A DNA stretch of 36,733 nt from Candidatus Pelagibacterales bacterium (GCA_004213215.1 SHAO01000004.1:1-36733), one strand, 5' to 3'; positions 12,793 to 34,859 are shown, counted from the stretch's first letter. The notes: generated by a model from the sequence alone, not told the origin. Program-made: numbers and translations.

Positions 12793-12815
12793 GAAAATTA
12801 ATTTTCATTAAAAAC

Positions 12816-12870
12816 TGGGTATTTAACCGAATTGTGCACCCAATATTTATTAAAGCACTAAAAACGGAGG
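12816..12870 (+). ncRNA. SAM-V-like riboswitch aptamer overlapping the ribosome binding site
   Basis: P1 tgggt(12816-12820)/accca(12838-12842); atttaaccgaattg loop; aatatttattaaagcactaaaaacgg; ccg(12827-12829) can pair cgg(12865-12867) inside the SD ggagg. Confidence 0.78.
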
Positions 12871-12875
12871 ATAAA

Positions 12876-14366: not shown

Positions 14367-14921
14367 TTATTGTGAGTAAGGAATTCTGCTAAATATCTTT
14401 TTAACATAAGGCTCAAAATCCCTTAGACTGAGTGATTTAAAGTTGGGATCAAAAGATTTTTGATCCCATTTTTCGCAAAAATTAATTGTATCTTTGTAGT
14501 ATTCATGTCCCTTAAACTTTTCTCTTTCATTTTTATTTTCTCCTAAATGGTGTGCATAATAATACATTTGAAAAATTCCATGTTTTTCTATTATCCAGCG
14601 CGTTTTTTCACTTACATAAGGTTTTAAAATAGCTGCAGCACACTCTGAATGATTTAAAGGAGCTAGTTCATCACCGATATCATGTAATAGTGCAGCTACA
14701 ATCATTTCATCATCCGCTTTATCATTTAAAGCTCTTGTTGCTGTTTGTAACGAATGTTCTAGTCTAGTTATTTGATAGCCTTCTAGTGTTGTATGCAGAC
14801 TACCCATAAATTTCAATAATCTATCAGCGGTACCTTCAACATACTTTTTTTCATATTTATTTAATAAAAGATATTCTTCTTTGGTGCCATCTTTCATTTG
14901 ATGAAACTTTACTTTTTCCAT
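14367..14921 (-). CDS. HD-domain protein, candidate non-heme diiron oxygenase partner (TmpB-like by context)
   Basis: LEHSLQTA, ALLHDIGDELAPLNHSE, IIEKHGIFQMYY, WDQKSFDP; start overlaps the end of the adjacent 2OG oxygenase gene. Confidence 0.65.
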   Translation of the reverse strand: MEKVKFHQMKDGTKEEYLLLNKYEKKYVEGTADRLLKFMGSLHTTLEGYQITRLEHSLQTATRALNDKADDEMIVAALLHDIGDELAPLNHSECAAAILKPYVSEKTRWIIEKHGIFQMYYYAHHLGENKNEREKFKGHEYYKDTINFCEKWDQKSFDPNFKSLSLRDFEPYVKKIFSRIPYSQ

Positions 14922-16018
14922 TTTAATCCAAACTTTCTTTCTAAGTGTCTTAATTTTCCTTCAGTAGAATCATGATCAATATAGCATCCTTTTAAGTACC
15001 TTTTTCCTTCACTAACATCATAAGATGTTCTTCCATGTAGCAGTCGATGGTTATCCATCATTAATAAATCTCCTTTCTCTAATTTAAATTTTATTTCAAA
15101 TTTTGAAGAAGCGTACAAATCTGCAATTAATTTTCTAGCTTCATAGAATAGTTTTAAATCATTTTTTTCTAATGCTGGCACATAATCTAATCTTGTACTG
15201 TATCTAACTTGTTTAACTTTGTTATTTTCATCTAACTCTATTAATTCTCCCCAATTTTCAAGAATTATAGTTTTATCCACAAAACGAAATCTAACTTTAG
15301 TTTTTGTTAGTATTTTAAATATATCTTTATAATTTTTTCTTAAGTGTTCAGCCACAGCAAAACCATCTACTAAAGTTGAAAAACCTCCCTTAACTTCATT
15401 TTCAATGCAATGCAGAAGCTGTATGCATGGAATTGGTTTTCTATATGGGTTATCAGTGTGAGGTGTAAGCGCTATAGATGTATAAGCTAAATCATTGGGT
15501 TTTGGTACAGATTTTACACTAAAAGACTCTCCAAAATTTGTTGGTCTTATTGTGCCTACAGAATTTGCAAATTCAACAATATAATTATCTTCAGTTGGGA
15601 CATTTTTAAAAATTACGAATCCATATTTATAAAAATTTTGTAACAAATCATACATAGCCTTTGTTTCAAAAATATCTTTTTTATAAATCGCTGTAGGTTT
15701 TTTATTAAGTTTTGAGTCCCAAAAAATTATTTTATCAAGGGGCTCTTTTCTGTCTATCTCATAAAGTAGACTATCAACTTCATATTCAAATTTTATTCCA
15801 TCAGTAAACTCTATATTTAGATGACCATTACTCATAGATGCTTTTTTTATTTTAAGATTTTGATCAAGTTGAGAAGGATCATACAACCTTTGATCATTAT
15901 GCTTATCGACCAGGTTATCTGTTTTAGCTCTTTCTCTTAGCCAAAGAGGGTGTATTTCAAAATTTTTATTTGAAGGGTTTACTAAAACTACGTTATTTTT
16001 AACTATTTCTATTTTCAC
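14909..16018 (-). CDS. Fe(II)/2-oxoglutarate oxygenase, gamma-butyrobetaine hydroxylase / trimethyllysine dioxygenase / TmpA-like
   Basis: DUF971-like N-terminus (HPLWLRERA...QRLYDPSQL), HTDNPYRKPIP...QLLHC, LLMMDNHRLLHGRTSY. Confidence 0.85.
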   Translation of the reverse strand: MKIEIVKNNVVLVNPSNKNFEIHPLWLRERAKTDNLVDKHNDQRLYDPSQLDQNLKIKKASMSNGHLNIEFTDGIKFEYEVDSLLYEIDRKEPLDKIIFWDSKLNKKPTAIYKKDIFETKAMYDLLQNFYKYGFVIFKNVPTEDNYIVEFANSVGTIRPTNFGESFSVKSVPKPNDLAYTSIALTPHTDNPYRKPIPCIQLLHCIENEVKGGFSTLVDGFAVAEHLRKNYKDIFKILTKTKVRFRFVDKTIILENWGELIELDENNKVKQVRYSTRLDYVPALEKNDLKLFYEARKLIADLYASSKFEIKFKLEKGDLLMMDNHRLLHGRTSYDVSEGKRYLKGCYIDHDSTEGKLRHLERKFGLKWKK

Positions 16019-17290: not shown

Positions 17291-18232
17291 ATGAAGATTG
17301 GTTTTATTGGTTTGGGAAATGTAGGTGGAAAACTAGCGGGAAGCTTATTACGCAATAAATTTGAGATAATTGTAAGGGATCTAGACAGCAAATTAACAAA
17401 TTTTTTTTTTGAAAAAGGTGCCCAAGTTGCAACTAGCCCAAAAGATTTAGCAGAAAAATCGGACCTTATTATAACTTGTTTACCTTCACCAGAAGTTTGT
17501 TCTGAAGTTATGGAAGCTGATGATGGTGTTATCAAAGGTTTAACCAAAGGTAAAATTTGGTTAGAAATGAGCACTACAGACAGTAAAGAGGTAAAAAGAA
17601 TTGGAACTTTAGTCAAATCAACTGGAGCAATTCCTTTAGATTGTCCAGTAAGTGGAGGATGTCATCGTGCAGCTACAGGAAATATTGCGATTTTAGTTGG
17701 TGGAGAAAAAAACTCTTTTAATAAAATTTTACCAGCTTTATCCGCTATGGGTAGAAAAATTTTATATACTGGTGAACTTGGTAGTGCTTCAATTTTAAAA
17801 GTTATTACTAATTATTTAGCATCAGCAAACCTTGTTTCAGTTGGAGAAGCTTTAATGGTTGCTAAAAAATCTGGTATGGACTTAAAAAAAACATATGAGG
17901 CTATTAAAATATCTTCAGGAAATTCTTTTGTTCACGAAACAGAAAGCCAAGTTATTTTAAATGGATCATATAATATAAGTTTTACAATGGATTTAGTTTT
18001 AAAAGATATGGGTTTATTTAATGACTTGTCAATAAAGAATAATATACCATTAGAATTATCGCCTTTAGTATTAAATATTTTTAAAGATGGACAAAAAAAA
18101 TATGGACCAAGAGCATGGTCTTCAATGATAGTAAAAAGATTGGAAGATGTCTGCAATACTAGTTTAAGAGCAGAGGGTTTTCCTGCAGAATTAACGGATT
18201 CTGAACCAGAGGAAAAAGGTCATCAAATATAA
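17291..18232 (+). CDS. NAD(P)-dependent beta-hydroxyacid dehydrogenase (HIBADH family)
   Basis: GFIGLGNVGGKLA Rossmann motif, DCPVSGG, catalytic K in GSASILKVITNYL; ggagg upstream. Confidence 0.9.
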   Translation: MKIGFIGLGNVGGKLAGSLLRNKFEIIVRDLDSKLTNFFFEKGAQVATSPKDLAEKSDLIITCLPSPEVCSEVMEADDGVIKGLTKGKIWLEMSTTDSKEVKRIGTLVKSTGAIPLDCPVSGGCHRAATGNIAILVGGEKNSFNKILPALSAMGRKILYTGELGSASILKVITNYLASANLVSVGEALMVAKKSGMDLKKTYEAIKISSGNSFVHETESQVILNGSYNISFTMDLVLKDMGLFNDLSIKNNIPLELSPLVLNIFKDGQKKYGPRAWSSMIVKRLEDVCNTSLRAEGFPAELTDSEPEEKGHQI

Positions 18233-18256
18233 TTTTTATGATAATAATTGAAAATA

Positions 18257-19684
18257 ATGGATAAAAGAAATTTTTATATAAATGGAAAATGGGTTTCTCC
18301 TTCAAAAGCAAATGATTTTAAGGTTATAAATCCATCAAATGAAGAAATTTTTGCTACAATATCTTTAGGGCACAAAGAGGATATAGACATAGCAGTAAAA
18401 GCAGCTAAAAATGCATTTGTTAAATGGAAAGAAACTTCAAAAGAAGAGAGAATAATTCTTTTAGAAAAATTACTTAAAATTTATAAAAAAAGATTTAATG
18501 AAATGACTGAGGCCATCACAATAGAAATGGGTTCACCAATTGATTATTCATCCTCAACCCATACAATTTCTGGTCAATCTCATTTAGAAGATTTTATATT
18601 AAGATTAAAAGAATTTAATTTTGAAGAACATTTTGATTCAAAATCAAATAATCATATACGTTATGAGCCGATAGGAGTCTGCGGTCTAATCACTCCGTGG
18701 AACTGGCCAATTAACCAGATAGCATTAAAAGTAGTTCCCGCATTAGCAACTGGATGCACAATGATACTCAAACCATCAGAGATAGCACCTATTTCAGCAA
18801 TGCTCTTTGCAGAAATGATAGATGAAGCGGGTTTTCCGTCTGGAGTTTTTAATTTAGTTAATGGAGATGGAGCTGGAATTGGAACGCATATATCTGGCCA
18901 TCCTGATATTGATATGGTTTCTTTCACAGGATCAACAAGAGCAGGAAAATTAATTTCAAAAAATGCTGCAAATACTATTAAAAGAGTTTGCTTAGAACTA
19001 GGAGGCAAAGGAGGAAATATCGTTTTTGCAGACTCATATCCTAACGCTGTAAGAGATGGAATTAGAAACGTAATGAGTAATTCTGGTCAATCTTGTGATG
19101 CACCAACAAGAATGTTGGTTGAAAAACCAATCTACGAAAGAGCAATTAAAGAAGCTGCAGATGAAGCAAAACTGATTAAAGTAGATATGGCCTCTAAGAA
19201 AGGAGATCATATAGGTCCTGTAGTTTCAAAAACTCAATATGATAAAATTATTAGTTTAATTAAAAGTGGAATTGATGAAGGCGCTACATTAGCAGCTGGA
19301 GGTCCCGATCTTCCAAATAATTTAAATAAAGGTTATTTTATAAAACCCACAATTTTTACAAATGTTACAAATGATATGGAAATAGCAAAAAAAGAAATTT
19401 TTGGACCAGTTCTCTCTATAATTCCATTTGAAACAGAAGAAGAAGCAATTAAGATTACCAACGAAACAGAATATGGTCTTGGTAACTATTTACAAACTGA
19501 AGATAAAGAAAAAGCAAAAAGAGTTGCAAAAAAATTAAGATCAGGAATTGTTTATATCAATGGAAATGCTGCTGATGCCGGTACACCTTTTGGTGGTTAT
19601 AGACAATCTGGAAATGGTCGCGAAGGCGGCACTTGGGGATTAGAAGAGTATCTCGAAGTAAAAACCATAACTGGTTGGAAGTAA
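18257..19684 (+). CDS. NAD(P)-dependent aldehyde dehydrogenase
   Basis: PWNWPINQ, FTGSTRAGK, LELGGKGGNIVF, GQSCDAPTR, KEIFGPVLS; ATG 18257 preferred over TTG 18248. Confidence 0.93.
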   Translation: MDKRNFYINGKWVSPSKANDFKVINPSNEEIFATISLGHKEDIDIAVKAAKNAFVKWKETSKEERIILLEKLLKIYKKRFNEMTEAITIEMGSPIDYSSSTHTISGQSHLEDFILRLKEFNFEEHFDSKSNNHIRYEPIGVCGLITPWNWPINQIALKVVPALATGCTMILKPSEIAPISAMLFAEMIDEAGFPSGVFNLVNGDGAGIGTHISGHPDIDMVSFTGSTRAGKLISKNAANTIKRVCLELGGKGGNIVFADSYPNAVRDGIRNVMSNSGQSCDAPTRMLVEKPIYERAIKEAADEAKLIKVDMASKKGDHIGPVVSKTQYDKIISLIKSGIDEGATLAAGGPDLPNNLNKGYFIKPTIFTNVTNDMEIAKKEIFGPVLSIIPFETEEEAIKITNETEYGLGNYLQTEDKEKAKRVAKKLRSGIVYINGNAADAGTPFGGYRQSGNGREGGTWGLEEYLEVKTITGWK

Positions 19685-21158: not shown

Positions 21159-22286
21159 TTATTTTTTTAAGTAGTTTAATCTTCCAAGAATTTCATCTCT
21201 GTCAATATAATATCCTTGCAAATGTCTATGACCTGAATTTGGATCAAAAGCAGTTCTTCCATGTAAAACTCTTCTATTATTGAATGAAAATATGTCACCG
21301 GGGTTTAATCTAAATTTAATTTGAAATCTATCGTCATGAAGCAGGTTTCCAAATCTATGATGTGCTTTATAAACCTTATCCATAATATCAGGGTGACAAT
21401 CTAATATATCCATTGTGGCAACACTAAATCTTATATCATTGTAATCTTTATCTTTAGTTAGAGAAACTGCTGGAGCATGAAAACCTCTAATTGATTCTTG
21501 AGTATAATCTTTGTCTCTAAATTTAAGAGGTACGCTTACTAAAGTTTCAAATATTTCTATTTCATTATGTTTCAAATAATCTACAACTGAAAATCCATCT
21601 ACTGCTGACGAATCTCCTCCCTCTGCAGAATTTATTAAGCAATGTAGAAATTGATACCCAGGAGGTGTTTCGAACCAGGGTAAGTCCATATGATTATTTA
21701 GAGCGTGTGCTGAATAAGCTGAATTATTTGGCTTAGGGATATTAATAACTTCAAATGGTGTTTTAAAAAAAGTTTCTCTTGTATGACTTATTCTATTTAG
21801 TACAGAAAAAGCAGATTCTTTCTCAATGGGCGTATTTTTGACAATTGCAATTCCTTTGCGGTGCAGAATCTCTAGCCATTTTATTAAACCTTTATCTGAT
21901 GAAATTATTTCATCATGCTCAACACTTATCGAGTCTAGATTATTCTGAAGCGAATTATTCCAAAGTTTATAGGGTGAAATATATTTTTGTTTACTTTTTA
22001 AAGTATAACAATTTTTTCTAAGCCATTTTGGATCATAGTAGCTAGTGTGATCACCTTCGCTCCATTTAATTTCTAACTTACCATCATGATTAATTTTAAA
22101 ATCTTTTGCTTTTATATTAGTCGAAACTTTAAGAATATTGAACATTCTGTGTCTCGAGTCCTTATCGTGGGCTGTTGGACAATTATCTCTTAACCAAAGA
22201 TAATTAAAATTACTTTTTTCTCCGTCGCTCCATTCAACATCTAGACCTGAGCCATTCTGAGAAATTTTTAAAATATTTATTTCCAT
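21159..22286 (-). CDS. Gamma-butyrobetaine hydroxylase-like Fe(II)/2OG dioxygenase
   Basis: N-terminal LWLRDNCPTAHDKDSRHR, NHMDLPWFETPPGYQFLHC, GGDSSAVDGFSV, RRVLHGRTAF; carnitine-type gene neighbourhood. Confidence 0.87.
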   Translation of the reverse strand: MEINILKISQNGSGLDVEWSDGEKSNFNYLWLRDNCPTAHDKDSRHRMFNILKVSTNIKAKDFKINHDGKLEIKWSEGDHTSYYDPKWLRKNCYTLKSKQKYISPYKLWNNSLQNNLDSISVEHDEIISSDKGLIKWLEILHRKGIAIVKNTPIEKESAFSVLNRISHTRETFFKTPFEVINIPKPNNSAYSAHALNNHMDLPWFETPPGYQFLHCLINSAEGGDSSAVDGFSVVDYLKHNEIEIFETLVSVPLKFRDKDYTQESIRGFHAPAVSLTKDKDYNDIRFSVATMDILDCHPDIMDKVYKAHHRFGNLLHDDRFQIKFRLNPGDIFSFNNRRVLHGRTAFDPNSGHRHLQGYYIDRDEILGRLNYLKK

Positions 22287-22463: not shown

Positions 22464-23489
22464 ATGAAATTTCTAAAAAACCTATTACTTTCATTTGTAT
22501 TTGCTGGAGTAATGGCTCTAGGAACAACTAGTGCTAATGCTGCATGTAAAGTACATTTGGGAGATTTCGACTGGGATAGTGCTAACGTACACACTGCGAT
22601 AGTCGGTTTTATAATTAAAAATGGTTATGGGTGTGAAGTTGAGGTTACTAAAGGAAGTACAAGCCCAATAATGGCTGCTCATTACGACCAGCAACTAGAT
22701 ATTATTACTGAGGTTTGGAGAGATAATATTGTTCAAATGCATGAGGAAGCAGTTGCAAAAGGACAAATTGTTGAACTTGGAGTTAACACTCCTTCATCTA
22801 CTCAAGGTTTCTATGTAGATAAAGCAACTTCAGATAAATATGGCTTAAAAAGTGTTGAAGACATGAAAAAACCTGAGATCGCAAAACTATTTGCTGATCC
22901 CGAGGCGCCTGGAAAAGGTAGAATGACAAGCTGTATTTCAGGATGGACTTGCTACACGATTAATTTAGTAAAACACAAAGTTTATGGTTTAGATGAATTC
23001 TATACTAACTTTGACCCAGGCTCTGGTGGAGCTTTAGATGCAGCAATTGCCGGTGCATTTAAAAAAGGTAAACCAGTATTTTCTTACTACTGGACACCAA
23101 CAGGTTTAATGGGAAAAGTTGATCTTGTTCAACTTAAAGAACCAGCATACGAAAATGCTTGTTGGACAAAAATGATGGCAGTAGTTGAAAAAATTAAAGC
23201 TGATGGTCCTGATGCATACACAGAAACATGTGCTAGTGCTTATGTGGATATGGCTTTAACAAAATCCGCTACAACTAAGTTTGCAAACGACCCAGCAAAC
23301 AAACCAATCATTGACTTTGTTAAACAGTACTCATTACCAACAGCTGAAGTTAACAAATCACTTGCTTTCTATATTGATGAATCCGGTGGAGATATGGAAG
23401 CAACTGCTAAGAATTACTTAAAGTCCGATGATGCATGGACTAAATGGGTTCCAGCAGATGTTGCAAGTAAAGTTAAAGCTGCGCTTTAA
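22464..23489 (+). CDS. proX: Glycine betaine/carnitine-type ABC transporter substrate-binding protein (ProX/OpuAC-like)
   Basis: Signal peptide; VHLGDFDWDSANVHTAIVGFII, ITEVWRDNI, GWTCYTINLVKHKVYGLDEFY; gaggg SD. Confidence 0.88.
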   Translation: MKFLKNLLLSFVFAGVMALGTTSANAACKVHLGDFDWDSANVHTAIVGFIIKNGYGCEVEVTKGSTSPIMAAHYDQQLDIITEVWRDNIVQMHEEAVAKGQIVELGVNTPSSTQGFYVDKATSDKYGLKSVEDMKKPEIAKLFADPEAPGKGRMTSCISGWTCYTINLVKHKVYGLDEFYTNFDPGSGGALDAAIAGAFKKGKPVFSYYWTPTGLMGKVDLVQLKEPAYENACWTKMMAVVEKIKADGPDAYTETCASAYVDMALTKSATTKFANDPANKPIIDFVKQYSLPTAEVNKSLAFYIDESGGDMEATAKNYLKSDDAWTKWVPADVASKVKAAL

Positions 23490-23507
23490 TTTTTAAAAAA
23501 TATTATA

Positions 23508-23538
23508 CTAAGAGCCCTAACGGGCTCTTAGTTTTTTT
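23508..23538 (+). terminator. Intrinsic terminator between proX and proW
   Basis: ctaagagccc(23508-23517)/gggctcttag(23522-23531), 4-nt loop, followed by 7 T. Confidence 0.92.
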
Positions 23539-23550
23539 GTAGGTATATAG

Positions 23551-24573
23551 ATGGAAAAGTATAAAAAATATATTAATTTAATTTATTTAGCTATTTTTGT
23601 AGGAATGGTTGTTATGGCTTACACAACCTCGAAATATAGACCTGAAAGCGTTTTTGTTTTATTTACAGATCTTTCTTGGCTGGGTGACTGGCCTAAATGG
23701 TTAGACTTTCCATTAATGCCATTTTTAAATAAATGGTTTGATATTCTGATTGTCAAATACGGAATTATGTTTGAAGGAATTAATTTTTTCTTACTAGGTA
23801 TATATGGCCAAATGAAAAATTTCTTAGTAGGTCTTCCTTGGCCAATAGTTATGATTTCAGTCATATTGCTTGCTTACTTTGCAAGTGGAAAACAAATGGG
23901 AACAACAATAATGGTTGGTTTCTGTGTTTTTTTTCTTGGATTTCTTAGTCCTAGATATTGGGACAAGTGTATAATGACAACAACGATAGTCGTTATTGGA
24001 ATGTTGCTTTGTTTAGTAATTGGTATTCCTATTGGAATAGCTATGGCGCGAAATAAAAAAGTAAGAAATGCATTATTACCGATCCTTGATTTGATGCAGA
24101 CCATACCAAGTTTTTGTTATTTAATTCCAGGAATTTTATTATTTGGATTAGGGGCGGTTCCGGCAATAGTTGCAATTTTTGTATATGCTGTTCCTCCACT
24201 TATAAGATTAACCGATTTAGGAATAAGATTGGTTGATAAAGAAGTTATCGAAGCAGCGGAGGCTTTTGGAGCAAATAAAAAACAAAAGTTATGGGGGGTG
24301 CAACTTCCTTTAGCTTTACCCAATATAATGCAAGGAATTAACCAATGTACGATGATGTCCTTAGCAATGGTTGTTATAGCTTCGATGATAGGAACAAGAG
24401 GAATAGGGGATGAAGTATTACTTGGTTTACAGCAGCTTAATGTCGGCATGGCTACAGAAGCAGGAATAGCTATTGTTCTTTTAGCTATAATTTTTGATAG
24501 AATAACACAATCTTATGGTGAAAGAATGCAAGAAAGAGTTCACCATACGAAGGAAAAGGTAAAATTAAAATAA
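23551..24573 (+). CDS. proW: Betaine/proline-type ABC transporter permease (ProW-like)
   Basis: GIPIGIAMARNKKVRNALLPILDLMQTIPSFCYLIP and EAAEAFGANKKQKLWGVQLPLALPNIMQGINQ EAA loop. Confidence 0.93.
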   Translation: MEKYKKYINLIYLAIFVGMVVMAYTTSKYRPESVFVLFTDLSWLGDWPKWLDFPLMPFLNKWFDILIVKYGIMFEGINFFLLGIYGQMKNFLVGLPWPIVMISVILLAYFASGKQMGTTIMVGFCVFFLGFLSPRYWDKCIMTTTIVVIGMLLCLVIGIPIGIAMARNKKVRNALLPILDLMQTIPSFCYLIPGILLFGLGAVPAIVAIFVYAVPPLIRLTDLGIRLVDKEVIEAAEAFGANKKQKLWGVQLPLALPNIMQGINQCTMMSLAMVVIASMIGTRGIGDEVLLGLQQLNVGMATEAGIAIVLLAIIFDRITQSYGERMQERVHHTKEKVKLK

Positions 24574-25625
24574 TGTCTACTAAAATAGAAATAAAAAACG
24601 TTTATAAAATTTTTGGAGAAAATCCAGCTAAAGTTCTTCCAATGGTTCAAGAGGGAGCTACAAAAGAAGAGGTTTTAGAACAAACAGGTCATACAGTTGG
24701 TCTTGATAATGTTTCTATAAATGTACAAGAAGGCGAAACTTTTGTGTGCATGGGATTATCTGGTTCAGGAAAATCAACGCTTATTCGTCATATTAACAGG
24801 TTAATAGACCCAACTGCGGGAGAGGTTTCTGTAGAGGGAACAAATGTGATGCAGCTTGATCAAAAAAGTTTAATTGAATTTAGAAGACATAAAATGAGCA
24901 TGGTCTTTCAAAGATTTGGATTATTTCCACACAAAACTGTAATTCAAAATGTTGGTTACGGTCTAGAAGTTCAGGGCAAAGAGAAAAATGAAATAGAAAA
25001 AGTTGCTATGGAAAAAATAGATGCCGTAGGTTTAATTGGTTTTGAACATATGTATCCAAACCAATTATCTGGAGGTATGCAACAACGTGTAGGTTTAGCA
25101 CGTGCGCTTGCGACAAACACAGATATTATGCTAATGGATGAAGCTTTTAGTGCACTAGATCCACTTATTAGAAGTGATATGCAAAAACAGCTTATTGATT
25201 TGCAAGCAGAATTAAAAAAAACAATTGTTTTTATTACTCACGACTTGGATGAATCATTGAGACTAGGCGATCATATAGGAATTTTAAATGGAGGAAGATT
25301 AGTTCAAGTTGGAACACCAATAGAAATTATAATGAAACCTGCAGATGATTATGTAGCTGCATTTGTAAAAGATGTAAATCGTGCAAAAGTTATTAAAGCT
25401 AAAATAATTATGGTGTCACCACAAAAATTTAAAGGTACTAAAAATTCAAACACCATTAAGGTAAATGAAGATGCTTTTCTAGATGAATTTTTACCTAAGG
25501 TTTGCTTAACTCCAGCAACAATTGAAGTGGTTGATAAAAGTGGAAACTTAAAAGGATATATTACTGATAAAGAATTATCCAAGGCTTTAACCAAGACCCA
25601 CTCAAATGGCGTTGTTAAATCTTAA
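24573..25625 (+). CDS. proV: Betaine/proline-type ABC transporter ATP-binding protein (ProV-like)
   Basis: GLSGSGKSTLIRHINRL, LSGGMQQRVGLARAL, LMDEAFSALDPLIR; start overlaps proW stop. Confidence 0.94.
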   Translation: MSTKIEIKNVYKIFGENPAKVLPMVQEGATKEEVLEQTGHTVGLDNVSINVQEGETFVCMGLSGSGKSTLIRHINRLIDPTAGEVSVEGTNVMQLDQKSLIEFRRHKMSMVFQRFGLFPHKTVIQNVGYGLEVQGKEKNEIEKVAMEKIDAVGLIGFEHMYPNQLSGGMQQRVGLARALATNTDIMLMDEAFSALDPLIRSDMQKQLIDLQAELKKTIVFITHDLDESLRLGDHIGILNGGRLVQVGTPIEIIMKPADDYVAAFVKDVNRAKVIKAKIIMVSPQKFKGTKNSNTIKVNEDAFLDEFLPKVCLTPATIEVVDKSGNLKGYITDKELSKALTKTHSNGVVKS

Positions 25626-26394
25626 AAATAAAAAAATAGTCATTTCAGCTGGAGCTTCAGGAATAGGTTGGGCAATAACGAAAGCTTGTATTTCAAAAGG
25701 AGCCTCAGTCTATTTATGTGATATAGACCGGAAAGCATTAAATAAAATTAAAAAACACCCTTTGCATAATAAACGTATTTTTATTTCTGAAATTGATGCT
25801 TCAAATGAAATAGAGGTAATAGATTTTTTTGAAATAATTAAAAAGAAATTTAAAAAACTAGATGCTTTAATTAATAATATTGGAATTGCTGGACCAACAG
25901 GCACTATTGAGAAATTAGAATCTAATGATTGGGAAAAAACAATGCATGTTAATGTAAATAGCCATTTTTATTTTAATAAACAAGCTATACCACTTTTAAA
26001 AAAAACAAGAAGCGCTTCAATAATTAATATTTCATCTGGAGCAGGAATTATGGGTTTTCCTCTGCGCTCACCTTATGCAGCTAGCAAATGGGCAGTGGTT
26101 GGAATGACAAAGACTTTAGCGATGGAACTTGGAAAATATAGAATTAGAGTAAACGCAATATGTCCAGGCACAATTAAAGGCGATAGAATGAAAAGAGTTA
26201 TAAGAGATAAGGCAAAATTTACAAAAATTTCATCAAAAAAAATTGAAAATGAATTTGTTTCTATGGCTTCAATGAACTGTTGGATTTATGAAGATGATAT
26301 AGGAAAGATGTGTTCTTTTTTAATCTCAGATGAAGCAGAAAGAATTTCTGGCCAAATTATTGGAGTTGATGGAAACGCTTTAAGATTAGATTGA
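25606..26394 (+). CDS. Short-chain dehydrogenase/reductase (candidate carnitine dehydrogenase by context)
   Basis: ISAGASGIGWAI, NNIGIAG, YAASKWAVVGMTK; overlaps proV end. Confidence 0.9.
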   Translation: MALLNLKNKKIVISAGASGIGWAITKACISKGASVYLCDIDRKALNKIKKHPLHNKRIFISEIDASNEIEVIDFFEIIKKKFKKLDALINNIGIAGPTGTIEKLESNDWEKTMHVNVNSHFYFNKQAIPLLKKTRSASIINISSGAGIMGFPLRSPYAASKWAVVGMTKTLAMELGKYRIRVNAICPGTIKGDRMKRVIRDKAKFTKISSKKIENEFVSMASMNCWIYEDDIGKMCSFLISDEAERISGQIIGVDGNALRLD

Positions 26395-27282
26395 TTATTT
26401 ATAATTTTTTAACTTTAGTTTTTCCCTAGTTTCAGCGGGAGTCATAGTTGATACACCAAGATCATTTACAATCCTTATTGCTTTTTCAACTAATTGAGCG
26501 TTTGTTGCTAATTTCCCTTTAGATAAATATAAATTATCTTCAAGTCCTACTCTTGGGTTTCCTCCCATAACTACAGTCTGGGCAACAAAAGGCATTTCAT
26601 TTTTTGAAATTGCAAAACCTGACCAAATACCTTCCTTTGGCATAATATCTTTCATTGCTTGCATAGCTGAAGTTGTTGCTGGCGCACCCCACGGTATACC
26701 AAGACACATTTGAAACATTGGTGGATCATTTAATAATCCTTCTTTATATAATTGAGCACCAAACCACATATTTCCTAAATCAAAAGCCTCTATTTCAGGT
26801 TTAACATTTATTTCTTGTAATCTTTTTGCAGCTTTTCTTAAATCATTAGGGGTGTTTACCGTAATTACAGAACTGTCTCCAAAGTTTAAGGTTCCACAAT
26901 CTAATGTACATATTTCTGGCAAAAATTGTTCGGCGTTAGCAATTCTTTCCATAACATTTGCCATATCTGTTAAAGGACCAAACTCCAAAGGGTTTTTTCC
27001 TTGTCCAATATCTAAATCACCTCCCATACCCGTTGTTAAATTTAAAATAACATCTGTGTCACTTGAGCGAATTCTATCAACAACCTCTTTATATAATTCT
27101 AATCTTCTACTTGGTGTTCCATCTTCTTCTCTAACATGGATATGTGCAATGGCTGCTCCAGCTTTTGCAGCTTCAATTGCTGCTTTAGCTATTTGTTCAG
27201 GTGTTTTTGGTAAATCAGGATGTTTTTTTGCAGTATCGCCTGATCCAGTTACCGCACAAGATACAAAGACATTTTTATTCAT
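26395..27282 (-). CDS. BKACE/DUF849 beta-keto acid cleavage enzyme (candidate 3-dehydrocarnitine cleavage)
   Basis: IHVREEDGTPSRRLELYKEVV, NLTTGMGG, EIEAFDLGNMWF. Confidence 0.92.
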   Translation of the reverse strand: MNKNVFVSCAVTGSGDTAKKHPDLPKTPEQIAKAAIEAAKAGAAIAHIHVREEDGTPSRRLELYKEVVDRIRSSDTDVILNLTTGMGGDLDIGQGKNPLEFGPLTDMANVMERIANAEQFLPEICTLDCGTLNFGDSSVITVNTPNDLRKAAKRLQEINVKPEIEAFDLGNMWFGAQLYKEGLLNDPPMFQMCLGIPWGAPATTSAMQAMKDIMPKEGIWSGFAISKNEMPFVAQTVVMGGNPRVGLEDNLYLSKGKLATNAQLVEKAIRIVNDLGVSTMTPAETREKLKLKNYK

Positions 27283-28003: not shown

Positions 28004-28465
28004 ATGATTTTAAAAACAGAAAAAGTAATAAAAGAATATACAGATTATAATAATCATCTAAATGTGGCCTTCTATGTGCGTATCTTTGATATAGCGGCTG
28101 ACATTATGTTGGATAATTTTAAAATGGGAGGAGAGTCAGCAAAAAAAGATAAAAAAACTACTTTTGTAGCAGAAATGCATACAATCTATAATCAGGAAGT
28201 TAGATTAGGAGAAGAGGTTGAAACTCATGTAACTTATGTTGACCATGACAAAAAAAGAATTCACTATAAACTTTCAATGTTTCATAAGGAAAAAAAGTAC
28301 CTTGCTGCCACAAATGAGGTTATATCTTTATACGTAGATCTTAGTAAAAGAAAAGTTGTTGAATTTGATGCTGATAGACTAAAAGCTATGGATGATTTTA
28401 TAAAAGATAATTCTTCAAAATTTAATGCAGATAAATTAATTTTTTCAGGAAAATTAAAGAAATAG
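28004..28465 (+). CDS. Hotdog-fold acyl-CoA thioesterase (candidate betainyl-CoA thioesterase)
   Basis: DYNNHLNVAFYVRIFDIAAD 4HBT-type motif; next to the BKACE gene. Confidence 0.83.
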   Translation: MILKTEKVIKEYTDYNNHLNVAFYVRIFDIAADIMLDNFKMGGESAKKDKKTTFVAEMHTIYNQEVRLGEEVETHVTYVDHDKKRIHYKLSMFHKEKKYLAATNEVISLYVDLSKRKVVEFDADRLKAMDDFIKDNSSKFNADKLIFSGKLKK

Positions 28466-31054: not shown

Positions 31055-32635
31055 CTAACTTAAAATAAGATCAGAGGCTTTTTCAGCAATCATAAGAGTG
31101 GGGGCATTTAAATTTGCACTAGGAATTTCAGGCATCACTGAAGCATCCACAACCCTTAAATTTTGAATTCCTTTTACTTTTAAATTTTCATCAACAACTG
31201 CCATTTCATCCACTCCCATTTTACAAGTTCCGCACGGATGATAAGCGGTTTCAGCATTAGATCTGATGTATTCGTTTAGTTGTTCATCACTTTGTTTATC
31301 AGACCCTGGACCAATTTCTTTACCATTATGTTTTTTTAAGGATGGTTGTGATAAAATTTTTCTGGCAACATGAATACATTCTCTTGTTTGTCTTAAGTCA
31401 TCTTCATCTTCTAAATAATTAAATAATATTTTAGGGTAATCATATGCATTTGAGGAATTTAATGTAATAGATCCTCTACTTTTCGGATGATTTGGACTTG
31501 CGTGCAATTGATATCCATGTGATTTTGGATTTACTAAACCATGGTTAATAACAAAGGATGGAAAAAAATGAAACTGAATATTGGGGATTTTCCTTTCCGG
31601 CGAAGATTTTGCAAATCCGCCAGCTTCTAAATATGATTGAGAACAAGGTCCTGATTTAGATAAAAACCATTGAATACCAGCAAACACTTTTGGAATTAAC
31701 TTAGTATATGTATAAAGTGTATCTGGTGTTTTACATTCTTGCTGAATATATGTCTCTAAATGGTCTTGAAGATTTTTACCAACGCCTCTTAAATTGTTGA
31801 TTACTTTTATTCCTTTTTCTTTTAAATGATTAGCGTCACCAATTCCAGATAGCATTAATAATTGAGGAGAATTGATTGAGCCACCACTTAATATAACTTC
31901 CTTTTCTGCATAAAAATTCTCAATTTTATTTTTAATTTTTACTTTAATTCCTATTGCTTTTTTTCCTTCAAAAATAATTTTTTCAACGAAAGCATTAGAA
32001 AAAATATTTAAATTTTTTCTTTTTTTCGCGGGATTCAAATAGTATCTAGAAACACTTGCTCTTTCGCCTTTATGTATCGTGGTATCAAACATTCCCATTC
32101 CTTCTTGGGACTCACCATTCATATCAGAGTTAATTACGTGTCCTGCCTCCGAAGATGCATTTAAAAAAGCACCAAATAAAGGATTGTTATTTTTTGATTG
32201 ATTTACAGGAAGCAATCCTAAGGATCCTCTATATTGATTTTCACCACCTGACCATTTTTCAATTTTTTTAAAATAAGGTAAAATACTTTCATATGACCAA
32301 GATTTTAATCCAAAACCCTCCCATCTTTCATAATCATTTCTATTACCTCTAACAAAAACCATTCCATTATGAGCTGAGCATCCTCCAATCATTTTACCTC
32401 TAGGACAAAATAATCTTCTATTATTTAAATGAGGCTCTGGTTCAGAATAGTATTTCCAATTATATTTTGGGTCATGCATTGTGTACAATAAAGCTAGTGG
32501 CATTTTAACTTTCCATATATCACTTGAATTACCAGCTTCAAAAATTCCAACGTTGTAATTTTTATTGTTAGATAATCTGTTTGCTAGAACACATCCGGCT
32601 GATCCAGCACCAACAATTATATAATCAAATTTCAT
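31055..32635 (-). CDS. GMC-family FAD oxidoreductase (choline dehydrogenase-like)
   Basis: DYIIVGAGSAGCVLANRLS, GKMIGGCSAHNGMVFVRG, YHPCGTCKMG, NLRVVDASVMPEIPSANLNAPTLMIAEKA. Confidence 0.93.
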   Translation of the reverse strand: MKFDYIIVGAGSAGCVLANRLSNNKNYNVGIFEAGNSSDIWKVKMPLALLYTMHDPKYNWKYYSEPEPHLNNRRLFCPRGKMIGGCSAHNGMVFVRGNRNDYERWEGFGLKSWSYESILPYFKKIEKWSGGENQYRGSLGLLPVNQSKNNNPLFGAFLNASSEAGHVINSDMNGESQEGMGMFDTTIHKGERASVSRYYLNPAKKRKNLNIFSNAFVEKIIFEGKKAIGIKVKIKNKIENFYAEKEVILSGGSINSPQLLMLSGIGDANHLKEKGIKVINNLRGVGKNLQDHLETYIQQECKTPDTLYTYTKLIPKVFAGIQWFLSKSGPCSQSYLEAGGFAKSSPERKIPNIQFHFFPSFVINHGLVNPKSHGYQLHASPNHPKSRGSITLNSSNAYDYPKILFNYLEDEDDLRQTRECIHVARKILSQPSLKKHNGKEIGPGSDKQSDEQLNEYIRSNAETAYHPCGTCKMGVDEMAVVDENLKVKGIQNLRVVDASVMPEIPSANLNAPTLMIAEKASDLILS

Positions 32636-33168
32636 ATAAGCTTAGATTCCAAAAGACTTTTATACTCATTTATAGATTTAATTTTCAGTCCAGCTATTTT
32701 TGCTACTTCGTCAAATTTTCTTAATTTAATAGAATTTTTAAAAAATTCATCTTTTTCAAAAATAATTGCTTCTTCATTGTTCATAATTCCACCTTGCAGC
32801 TTTAAACTTATTTTTGATGCCTTTGAGAGTAATTCGTAATATTTACTCCCTCTTGCTAAATATCTTTTTGCTTTAACATGATTTTTAATTGGGCCCAAGA
32901 CATCTTTTTTAAAATATTTTTTTAAAAATTCATACCCTATATCTTCATGTTTTCCATCTTTATTTTTTTTAATTAAATTATCAGGATTTTCTAAAATAAA
33001 ATGTCCATAGTCATGCAGTAAACTAGAACAAACAAGATCAGTTGTGCTATTAGTTTTCTCAGCAAGCATTGCTGTTTGTATCATGTGTTCACTCATAGTA
33101 ACTTTTTCACCAATATAAAGTGATTTATTATTTAAATAATTAGATATGATCTGATCAATAATATTCAT
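32632..33168 (-). CDS. PhnZ-like HD-domain non-heme diiron oxygenase
   Basis: YIGEKVTMSEH (Y-x2-E-x6-H as in PhnZ), SSLLHDYGH, KHEDIGYEFL, IKNHVKAKRYL, LRKFDEVAK; ATGA overlap with the GMC gene. Confidence 0.85.
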   Translation of the reverse strand: MNIIDQIISNYLNNKSLYIGEKVTMSEHMIQTAMLAEKTNSTTDLVCSSLLHDYGHFILENPDNLIKKNKDGKHEDIGYEFLKKYFKKDVLGPIKNHVKAKRYLARGSKYYELLSKASKISLKLQGGIMNNEEAIIFEKDEFFKNSIKLRKFDEVAKIAGLKIKSINEYKSLLESKLI

Positions 33169-33177
33169 CTTTAAAAG

Positions 33178-34005
33178 CTAATGAGGTTGATCACCTTCAA
33201 TAGCTATTCTATCCATAATTCTTTCGTAACCTAAACCTCTACCAGGAAAAAAATCTGCAATAGCATAATGTAACACACTTCTATTATCCCAAATTGCAAC
33301 AGCATTTTCTGTCCATTGGAATCTACAAGTTAAATCTAGCCGTGCTTGATGTTCAAAAATTTCTTTGAGAATTTTATCACTTTCTAATTTATCCAATCCT
33401 ATTATTTGTTTTGTATAGGTCCAGTTCACGTATAGTATTTTTTTTCCAGTTTCTGGGTGAGTTCTTACAACTGGGTGTATATTAGAGTATTCATCAGTGT
33501 TACCGTTTCCTTCCATAGCTTTATAATCTTTTACAAAAAAAGCAGCACCTAATGAACTATGAATTGCTTTTTTATTTTTAACTTTTTCTTTCAAATCCTT
33601 ATCAAGTGTTTCCCATGCAAGTTCCATGTTTGAAAAAACTGTATCTCCTCCTACAGGAGGTATTTTTATTGATTTTAAAATAACAGCTTTGGTAGGCTTA
33701 ATATTATAACTGACATCAGAATGCCAATTTTCGCCCCATTGATTTTTTTCATCTGGATCTTTAATGATTCGTACAATTTCTGGATATTTCTCACGTCCCT
33801 TTACATAAGCGTGTTTTTCCAATGGACCAAAATGTTTAGCTAAAGTCAATTGCTCTTCTGGTGTAATTTTTTGGTTTCTAAAAAAAATAACCTTGTGTTC
33901 TAAAAGTAAATTATTAATAGTTTTAAAATTTTTTTCAGAAGAGTCTTTAAGATCTACTCCATTTACTTCAGCTCCTAACGCGCCTGACAATAGCTTCACA
34001 TTCAT
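33178..34005 (-). CDS. TauD/TfdA-family Fe(II)/2-oxoglutarate dioxygenase
   Basis: GAEVNGVDL, FFRNQ, ENWHSDVSY (HxD), GGDTVFSN, WDNRSVLHYA. Confidence 0.92.
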   Translation of the reverse strand: MNVKLLSGALGAEVNGVDLKDSSEKNFKTINNLLLEHKVIFFRNQKITPEEQLTLAKHFGPLEKHAYVKGREKYPEIVRIIKDPDEKNQWGENWHSDVSYNIKPTKAVILKSIKIPPVGGDTVFSNMELAWETLDKDLKEKVKNKKAIHSSLGAAFFVKDYKAMEGNGNTDEYSNIHPVVRTHPETGKKILYVNWTYTKQIIGLDKLESDKILKEIFEHQARLDLTCRFQWTENAVAIWDNRSVLHYAIADFFPGRGLGYERIMDRIAIEGDQPH

Positions 34006-34079
34006 AGATTTAGCTTAATCGATTTATTTTTCGATGTAAATCTTTGGGTATACTTAACGTTAGGTGAATTAACGATTAA

Positions 34080-34316
34080 TTATTTTAATAATCTTCGATA
34101 AGTGATCATTAAAGCAAGTATAACAATCAATGCAGCAATACCAGAATCTCCAAGGGTATTAAGTAATGCAACTAGATTTGTAGTAACTTGTGAGCCAAAA
34201 AAAGCAACATCAGGCCCAAATAATATTTCAGCAAAAACAGAAACTCCTATTAAAAGCACCCCTAATTCAATAAATTGTCTCAAATAGTATCTAATTGTTC
34301 CAATCCAAGCTTTCAT
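34080..34316 (-). CDS. Small membrane protein, twin of 34430..34645
   Basis: 78 aa, two hydrophobic segments, aaggag SD; shared NLVALLNTLGDSGIAALIVILAL block. Confidence 0.72.
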   Translation of the reverse strand: MKAWIGTIRYYLRQFIELGVLLIGVSVFAEILFGPDVAFFGSQVTTNLVALLNTLGDSGIAALIVILALMITYRRLLK

Positions 34317-34342
34317 ACAACTCCTTATAATTGTTTTAAACT

Positions 34343-34374
34343 CTATCCTAGCCCAAAAATTAGGGCTAGGATAG
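34343..34374 (-). terminator. Strong hairpin between the twin small genes (terminator or mRNA-stabilising element)
   Basis: ctatcctagccc(34343-34354)/gggctaggatag(34363-34374), 12-bp perfect stem, 8-nt loop; no strong T tract on either strand. Confidence 0.6.
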
Positions 34375-34429
34375 CTAGGTTTTAATCGTTAGTTAATTTT
34401 AAGAGGGAAAAACTAACGAAATATAATAC

Positions 34430-34645
34430 CTATTTGTAGAATCCTAATATTATAATAGCAGCTATTAAGCCCACTATTCCTGCATCACCTAGTGACTGAA
34501 CTAAACTAACAATATTGTCAGCTATGCCACTTACAAATGGAACATTTCCACCTAGAAGCGATACAACGATACCTAATCCAAGTAGTGATATCACTACATG
34601 TGTCAGGCTGTTTACCGTGCTTGAAAATCCTGATAGCATTTTCAT
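34430..34645 (-). CDS. Small membrane protein, twin of 34080..34316
   Basis: MKMLSGFSSTVNSLTHVVISLLGLGIVVSLLGGNVPFVSGIADNIVSLVQSLGDAGIVGLIAAIIILGFYK; ATG 34645 preceded by GGGAGG, preferred over GTG 34654. Confidence 0.72.
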   Translation of the reverse strand: MKMLSGFSSTVNSLTHVVISLLGLGIVVSLLGGNVPFVSGIADNIVSLVQSLGDAGIVGLIAAIIILGFYK

Positions 34646-34859
34646 ACTTAACACCTCCCTTTATACCTTGTTTAAACAAGTGCCACCGAATCAACTATCG
34701 ATAGCGTATGGGCTTTAGTACCATACTATATGTAGATAGCTAGCCAATTTTAATGCAAAAAAGTCAGTAAAATAGACGTTTTTGAGTTTTCCACACTAAT
34801 TTTTAGTGAAAAAAAGAGAGGTTAGGCATTGTACTCTTTATATATATATTCCAAATTCG

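Follow-up and report, generated by a model that had tools for sequence, protein, structure and literature searches.

A predicted PhnZ/TmpB-type HD oxygenase joined to a choline dehydrogenase-like gene, and a separable TauD-family dioxygenase, in a SAR11 betaine island

The window, that is, the whole stretch of 36,733 nucleotides analyzed here (GCA_004213215.1, SHAO01000004.1:1-36733), is a contig of SAR11 (Pelagibacteraceae) from a 0.98-Mb genome that is approximately 78% complete; the assignment follows from its relatives among GTDB contigs, every one of which carries the name Pelagibacteraceae or Pelagibacterales. Three consecutive genes are found on its minus strand, namely a TauD-family dioxygenase (TauD; positions 33178–34005, 275 amino acids; PF02668, 200 bits), an HD-domain protein (the focal HD; 32632–33168, 178 amino acids; Pfam HD, 35 bits), and a GMC oxidoreductase (GMC; 31055–32635, 526 amino acids; Pfam GMC_oxred_N/C, 186/144 bits). 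TauD is separated from HD by a 9-nt gap, and HD overlaps GMC by 4 nt in the form ATGA. A preliminary description of this DNA had reported the trio with this layout and had quoted the HD motifs YIGEKVTMSEH, HVKAKRYL and LRKFDEVAK, all of which are present, as is LLHDYGH. The approximately 800 bases upstream of TauD (34006–34805) contain no long open reading frame and gave no match to Rfam.

A group of genes related to betaine metabolism precedes the trio in coordinates. It comprises a HIBADH-type dehydrogenase and a betaine-aldehyde-dehydrogenase-like aldehyde dehydrogenase (17291–19684, plus strand), a gamma-butyrobetaine dioxygenase-like gene (GBBH; 21159–22286, minus strand; TIGR02409, 316 bits, and 270 bits with the TmpA model), a betaine/choline ABC importer of the ProX-ProW-ProV type (22464–25625, plus strand), an SDR dehydrogenase conserved in the island that is a candidate carnitine/alcohol dehydrogenase (25606–26394, plus strand), a candidate dehydrocarnitine cleavage enzyme (26395–27282, minus strand; PF05853, 309 bits) that is a conserved neighbor with 88–98% identity in relatives, and a 4HBT thioesterase (28004–28465, plus strand; PF13279). 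The last is a candidate betainyl-CoA thioesterase, resembles the thioesterase portion of carnitine 3-dehydrogenase, and is located directly upstream of TauD/HD in most relatives, in which the order 4HBT-TauD-HD-GMC lies near BKACE, SDR, ProXWV and GBBH-like dioxygenase genes. Judged by their families, these genes form the set expected for the conversion of gamma-butyrobetaine or carnitine to glycine betaine and of choline to betaine. A glycine-betaine genomic island of Arctic SAR11 has already been described (PMC12421898), and the HIBADH-type and aldehyde dehydrogenase genes of the window correspond to its HADH and ALDH. The betaine context of HD rests on these island genes and on the published island, and since the trio lies in an island of this kind, glycine betaine is the simplest reading of the product.

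Regulatory signals were also sought. The only riboswitch matched by Rfam in the window is a SAM-V element near 12.8 kb, and none was found that would control the trio operon. The SAM-V element (12807–12872, plus strand; 49.7 bits) is placed at the start of a betaine-homocysteine methyltransferase-like gene, whose GTG codon at 12834 falls inside the riboswitch; the true start is probably downstream. Control by PhoB was considered and rejected, as the search around the operon returned a lone match with three mismatches, not upstream of the operon, where two are expected by chance.

The arrangement of the trio was compared in 120 SAR11 operons, a set in which some genomes are counted twice. The order TauD-HD-GMC with an intact TauD occurs in 89 operons, preceded by the 4HBT gene in 63 and without it in 26. 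Gene order differs among genomes, and TauD-GMC and HD-GMC versions also occur: 19 operons contain TauD-GMC without HD, three contain 4HBT-HD-GMC without TauD, five have HD-GMC with TauD beyond the contig end or unrecognised, and in four TauD is present as two overlapping or adjacent pieces. Wherever HD and GMC are neighbors the overlap is exactly 4 nt (101 of 101 operons), unlike the spacings of TauD-HD and TauD-GMC, which are variable; in most operons TauD is immediately 5' of HD with gaps of 0–9 nt. The invariant overlap and the 89 operons with the full order indicate that the arrangement is not due to chance, and HD is predicted to be translationally coupled to the choline dehydrogenase-like GMC. 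Pieces of TauD next to intact HD and GMC were observed in L058/L091 (genome G237), L155 and L098, and reflect either decay or sequencing error.

HD and TauD were further followed in 248 Pelagibacterales genomes (G000–G247), with counts tallied by hand and TauD orthologues accepted at E<=1e-45. The focal HD is found in 24 of these genomes. TauD is present in 19 of the 24. The pairing is not obligate, because five HD genomes lack a TauD orthologue (G022, G052, G135, G163 and G217), HD is absent from 26 of the 45 family-f1 genomes that have TauD, and a second family, f2, contributes 26 further TauD orthologues (65–77% identity), none with the focal HD; those f2 orthologues that were examined have neither HD nor GMC nearby. 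On a FastTree phylogeny of GMC, the TauD-only and HD-only labels need at least three changes each, and they cluster no more than in shuffles. GMC is thus the constant element, to which TauD and HD attach as separable modules, and a TauD → HD → GMC pathway cannot be obligate. The single dedicated pathway of the preliminary description is not supported, in view of the occurrence of HD without TauD, of TauD without HD, which is much commoner, and of TauD with neither partner.

These distributions bear on a dedicated two-step pathway in which TauD, as a new type of hydroxylase, would hydroxylate a phosphonate and HD would cleave the product, with GMC taking a related alcohol or aldehyde. The short gaps by which TauD directly precedes HD in most operons, its presence in the majority of HD-positive genomes, and the retention of two residues with which E. 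coli TauD binds the oxyanion are consistent with it; we nevertheless consider it unlikely in view of the many TauD genes that lack HD in both families, the five HD genomes that lack TauD, and the split or frameshifted TauD genes beside intact HD-GMC in G237, L155 and L098. It is also opposed by the two subtypes of TauD, VNWTYTK..HYAIADF and VNSMYTK..HQGLTDF (A2 alignment; L050, L054 and L063 compared with the window), each of which is found with and without HD. The NWTYTK or NSMYTK motif was consequently discarded as a marker of partnership with HD; by sequence, the subtypes may differ in substrate. The surroundings of solitary TauD genes, which contain an EamA transporter and housekeeping genes, were likewise discarded as a clue to the substrate.

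With the choline dehydrogenase model NF002550, the GMC protein scores above the cutoff (734.6 bits, cutoff 605), whereas it misses the stricter betA equivalog TIGR01810 (663 bits, cutoff 732); its best PDB match is the choline dehydrogenase 9lq0. It is encoded by the sole GMC gene found in the window's genome, and we infer that it oxidizes choline. The earlier assignment of GMC as choline dehydrogenase-like is upheld, and the choline-like substrate suggested along with it is plausible.

TauD shares 33% identity with its E. coli namesake and scores 219 bits with the taurine dioxygenase model PRK09553, below the cutoff of 313. In the E. coli enzyme, His70 and Arg270 hold the taurine sulfonate, and both have equivalents in the window (His65 and Arg266). 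Tyr73 and Asn95, the residues that bind the taurine amine, are replaced by Val68 and Gly91, and Asp94 by Trp90; one replaced amine-binding position is an invariant Trp. This pattern weakly suggests an oxyanion-bearing substrate with no primary amine, for example a quaternary ammonium compound; the argument is weak because generic TauD relatives from other alphaproteobacteria likewise retain His70 and Arg270. The predicted structure of TauD was too poor for use (pLDDT 60).

The same residues enter an alternative in which TauD would desulfonate or desulfate trimethyltaurine or choline-O-sulfate to betaine aldehyde, GMC would convert the latter to betaine, and HD would act on a separate phosphonate. 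In its favor, TauD-GMC pairs without HD are common, the sulfonate-binding pair is retained while the amine-binding residues are replaced, and BetA-type enzymes oxidize both choline and betaine aldehyde. Retention of the pair in generic relatives, however, is no proof of a sulfonate, and the f2 orthologues of TauD that were examined have no adjoining GMC. We regard this alternative as rather unlikely.

A search of models and structures places the focal HD close to the phosphonate-cleaving HD oxygenases. It misses every equivalog cutoff, the nearest NCBIfam models being TIGR03276 (162 bits, cutoff 214.6), TmpB (NF049941; 150.9 bits, cutoff 300) and PhnZ1 (130 bits, cutoff 300), and its only PDB relatives are TmpB (4e-28) and PhnZ (3e-24). 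An AF2 model built with SAR11 orthologues (pLDDT 89.4) retrieved PhnZ or TmpB structures as all of the top ten Foldseek hits (TMq 0.85–0.88), with TMq values of 0.87 for PhnZ (4n6w), 0.86–0.88 for TmpB (6npa), and 0.52 for mouse MIOX. The diiron ligand set H...HD...H...H...D and a substrate-gated YxxE loop are motifs of the family (PMC8177086). In the focal HD, the ligands His28, His52, Asp53, His74, His97 and Asp153 and the gate residues Tyr18 and Glu21 (Tyr24 and Glu27 in PhnZ) are invariant in 20 orthologues, which keep all equivalents of PhnZ Tyr24, Glu27, His34, His58, Asp59, His62, His80, His104 and Asp161. Lys101, Ser118 and Arg150, also invariant in the 20 orthologues, align with PhnZ Lys108, Ser126 and Arg158, which are presumably the phosphonate-binding residues. 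The focal HD is thus predicted, from sequence, ligands and modeled fold, to be a mixed-valent diiron oxygenase of the PhnZ/TmpB type, in agreement with the PhnZ-type enzyme proposed initially.

Two methionines, Met25 and Met29, flank the metal ligand His28 and are diagnostic residues shared with the TmpB clade only; the equivalent positions are Gln31 and Ser35 in PhnZ and mostly Gln and Ala in other Phn-HD proteins. Both methionines may line the ammonium end of the HD pocket.

In the phylogeny, the focal HD proteins form a single SAR11 clade (support 100/99) on a long stem. Its placement among the PhnZ and TmpB groups, a point the preliminary description had raised, is without support: the free tree does not support joining it with the TmpB clade or any other. 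Constraining it with TmpB gives a lnL 2.4 better than that of the free tree (p-AU 0.58), and constraining it with the phn-linked SAR11 group 2 a lnL 11.5 worse (p 0.18); the test rejects neither placement. The focal HD is most likely TmpB-like in its working while belonging to a separate SAR11 clade. The long stem, the strict coupling with the choline dehydrogenase and the lack of phosphonate genes nearby would also suit the recruitment of HD to a non-phosphonate choline or carnitine substrate, with C-C or C-S cleavage as in MIOX, a proposal that we find very improbable given the full conservation of the Lys/Ser/Arg phosphonate site in the 20 orthologues.

The relation of the focal HD to phosphonate uptake was analyzed in 66 sampled SAR11 genomes that have an HD oxygenase, about half of which (32) carry the focal type. 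No phosphonate importer lies in the window, as had been noted before, and no match to PhnD was found at E<=1e-30 in its approximately 78% complete genome; among the 32 focal-HD genomes, four have a PhnD match. The other SAR11 HD proteins are 44–47% and 37–40% identical to the focal HD and mostly adjoin phnCDE, accompanied by either phnF or a gene of PhnX type. One of these groups, group 2 (L034–L041, L052 and L053), lies beside phnCDE, phnF and genes for an ArsK-like MFS protein, an ArsC-like protein and an aquaporin, lacks an adjoining 2OG hydroxylase, and could possibly represent an orphan PhnZ acting on imported hydroxyphosphonates.

The occurrence of such paralogues beside phnCDE without a neighboring hydroxylase, together with the identity of the phosphonate-site residues, is in line with a role of the focal HD in phosphorus acquisition from (R)-HAEP or hydroxymethylphosphonate, with the hydroxylase encoded elsewhere or the hydroxyphosphonate imported. 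This role is quite improbable: the focal group is unlinked to phnCDE, as the scarcity of PhnD also shows, it resides in a betaine island, and the Gln of PhnZ and the others is replaced by Met.

In other alphaproteobacteria, relatives of HD often adjoin TmpA-like enzymes. No window-type TauD was detected by BLAST beside them in the alphaproteobacterial regions read, with gene calls that were rough where the DNA is GC-rich. One such genome, G496, has at L208 a pair of TmpA-like and TmpB-clade genes next to BKACE, thioesterase and GBBH-like genes, an arrangement that provides a precedent for the placing of phosphonate-to-betaine genes within a carnitine cluster. The focal HD has no adjoining TmpA, its neighbor being TauD or none.

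A TmpA-like dioxygenase gene (14909–16018, minus strand; TmpA model 345, cutoff 400) is nevertheless present in the window 16 kb from the focal HD. Such a gene is found in 181 of the 248 Pelagibacterales genomes, including three of the five that have HD and lack TauD (G022, G052 and G163; not detected in G135 and G217). In the two loci with HD and without TauD that were read, L070 and L072, a GBBH-like gene is located in the same island. The TmpA-like gene of the window overlaps that of a divergent HD protein, HD2 (14367–14921, minus strand), which keeps the H, HD, H, H and D residues; it would represent an uncharacterised HD family, since neither the YxxE gate nor the Lys/Ser/Arg residues of PhnZ are kept. 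Relatives of HD2 (34–59% identity) occur in 36 other genomes of 146 alphaproteobacterial-class genomes, and one again adjoins a TmpA-like gene in L336. The pair was rejected as a standard SAR11 TmpAB: in 11 loci examined, the TmpA-like gene adjoins IMPase and HD2 was not found.

The explanation of the whole that we consider best, and advance tentatively, combines a TmpB-like HD module, a choline-dehydrogenase GMC and a separable TauD within the betaine island; family, fold, conserved residues, context and the separability of TauD from HD are shown, and the substrates, products and order of the steps are inferred. The trio would constitute an accessory end of the SAR11 glycine-betaine island, its genes apparently acting as modules that contribute to betaine production and not as a fixed route of three steps. 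HD would catalyze the oxidative C-P cleavage of an (R)-alpha-hydroxyphosphonate to glycine betaine and phosphate, the likeliest substrate being 1-hydroxy-2-(trimethylammonio)ethylphosphonate or a closely related N-methylated compound, and GMC would convert choline to betaine. TauD, a 2-oxoglutarate dioxygenase separable from HD, would act on a betaine-like compound that bears a tetrahedral oxyanion, whether phosphonate, sulfonate or sulfate, and where both occur it may also supply the hydroxy-substrate of HD. In the absence of TauD, HD would have to be supplied by a GBBH/TmpA-like enzyme or by uptake of the hydroxyphosphonate. This explanation is favored by the family, fold and residues of HD, the two methionines, the constrained tree with TmpB, the betaine context, the cluster in G496, the separability of TauD and HD, and the residues kept and replaced in TauD. 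Counting against it are the missed equivalog cutoffs, the lack of support for the branching of HD, the absence of both a phosphonate importer and a PhoB box from the island, and the two TauD-negative HD genomes in which a TmpA-like gene was not detected.

A more specific proposal, that a TfdA/TauD-type hydroxylase and the SAR11-specific HD together convert an N-methylated phosphonate to glycine betaine and phosphate, with a betaine importer in place of a phosphonate importer, is distinctly unlikely. If it were true, betaine supply rather than phosphate hunger would drive phosphonate breakdown, and the ocean's most abundant heterotroph would possess an additional type of oxidative C-P cleavage.

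The chemistry of PhnZ and TmpB, choline dehydrogenase and the betaine island are already known; the HD variant of the SAR11 island appears to be undescribed. In the literature searched, no description was found of a SAR11-specific HD clade inside the betaine island, nor of strict HD-choline dehydrogenase coupling or of independence from TauD and phosphonate importers. SAR11 dominates the surface ocean. A global survey, in which phnZ was treated as 2-aminoethylphosphonate (2-AEP) catabolism, attributed 45% of marine phnZ sequences to Pelagibacterales (PMC9381506). For sequences of the focal type the 2-AEP assignment is doubtful; they probably act on a choline-like phosphonate, and in any case their substrate is not assignable to 2-AEP. 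Confirmation would change the estimated shares of organisms in the breakdown of each phosphonate and would tie betaine nutrition to phosphorus release.

A comparison with known systems begins with the Arctic SAR11 island (PMC12421898), which shares HADH, ALDH, GPDP, BBOX(1), ABC, BKACE, ACOT, SMR, BBOX(2), CHDH and DMT. Its CHDH corresponds to GMC and its BBOX(2) occupies the position of TauD, where the dioxygenase is named gamma-butyrobetaine dioxygenase; an HD oxygenase is absent from its gene list. TauD shares with E. coli TauD the 2OG dioxygenase family, the HxD..H triad and the equivalents of His70 and Arg270, and differs in overall identity, in the PRK09553 score and in the replacement of Tyr73, Asn95 and Asp94. 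The focal HD has the fold, diiron ligands, gate and phosphonate-site residues of PhnZ (4MLM/4MLN, 4N6W and 4N71), from which it is distinguished by a mean identity of 34%, by Met at the positions of Gln31 and Ser35, and by the lack of a nearby PhnY. It belongs to the same family as the TIGR03276 Phn-HD proteins, including the phn-linked SAR11 groups (34–48% identity), but falls below the cutoff of their model and, unlike those SAR11 groups, is not found beside phnCDE. TmpB of Leisingera caerulea (PDB 6NPA) is an (R)-1-hydroxy-2-trimethylaminoethylphosphonate oxygenase that yields glycine betaine and phosphate. The focal HD departs from it in a mean identity between clades of 39%, in a score of 151 against the cutoff of 300, in forming its own SAR11 clade without an adjacent TmpA, and in its predicted coupling to choline dehydrogenase; by contrast, the two have in common the fold, the diiron ligands, the YxxE gate, the Lys/Ser/Arg residues, Met25 and Met29, and a betaine-producing context.
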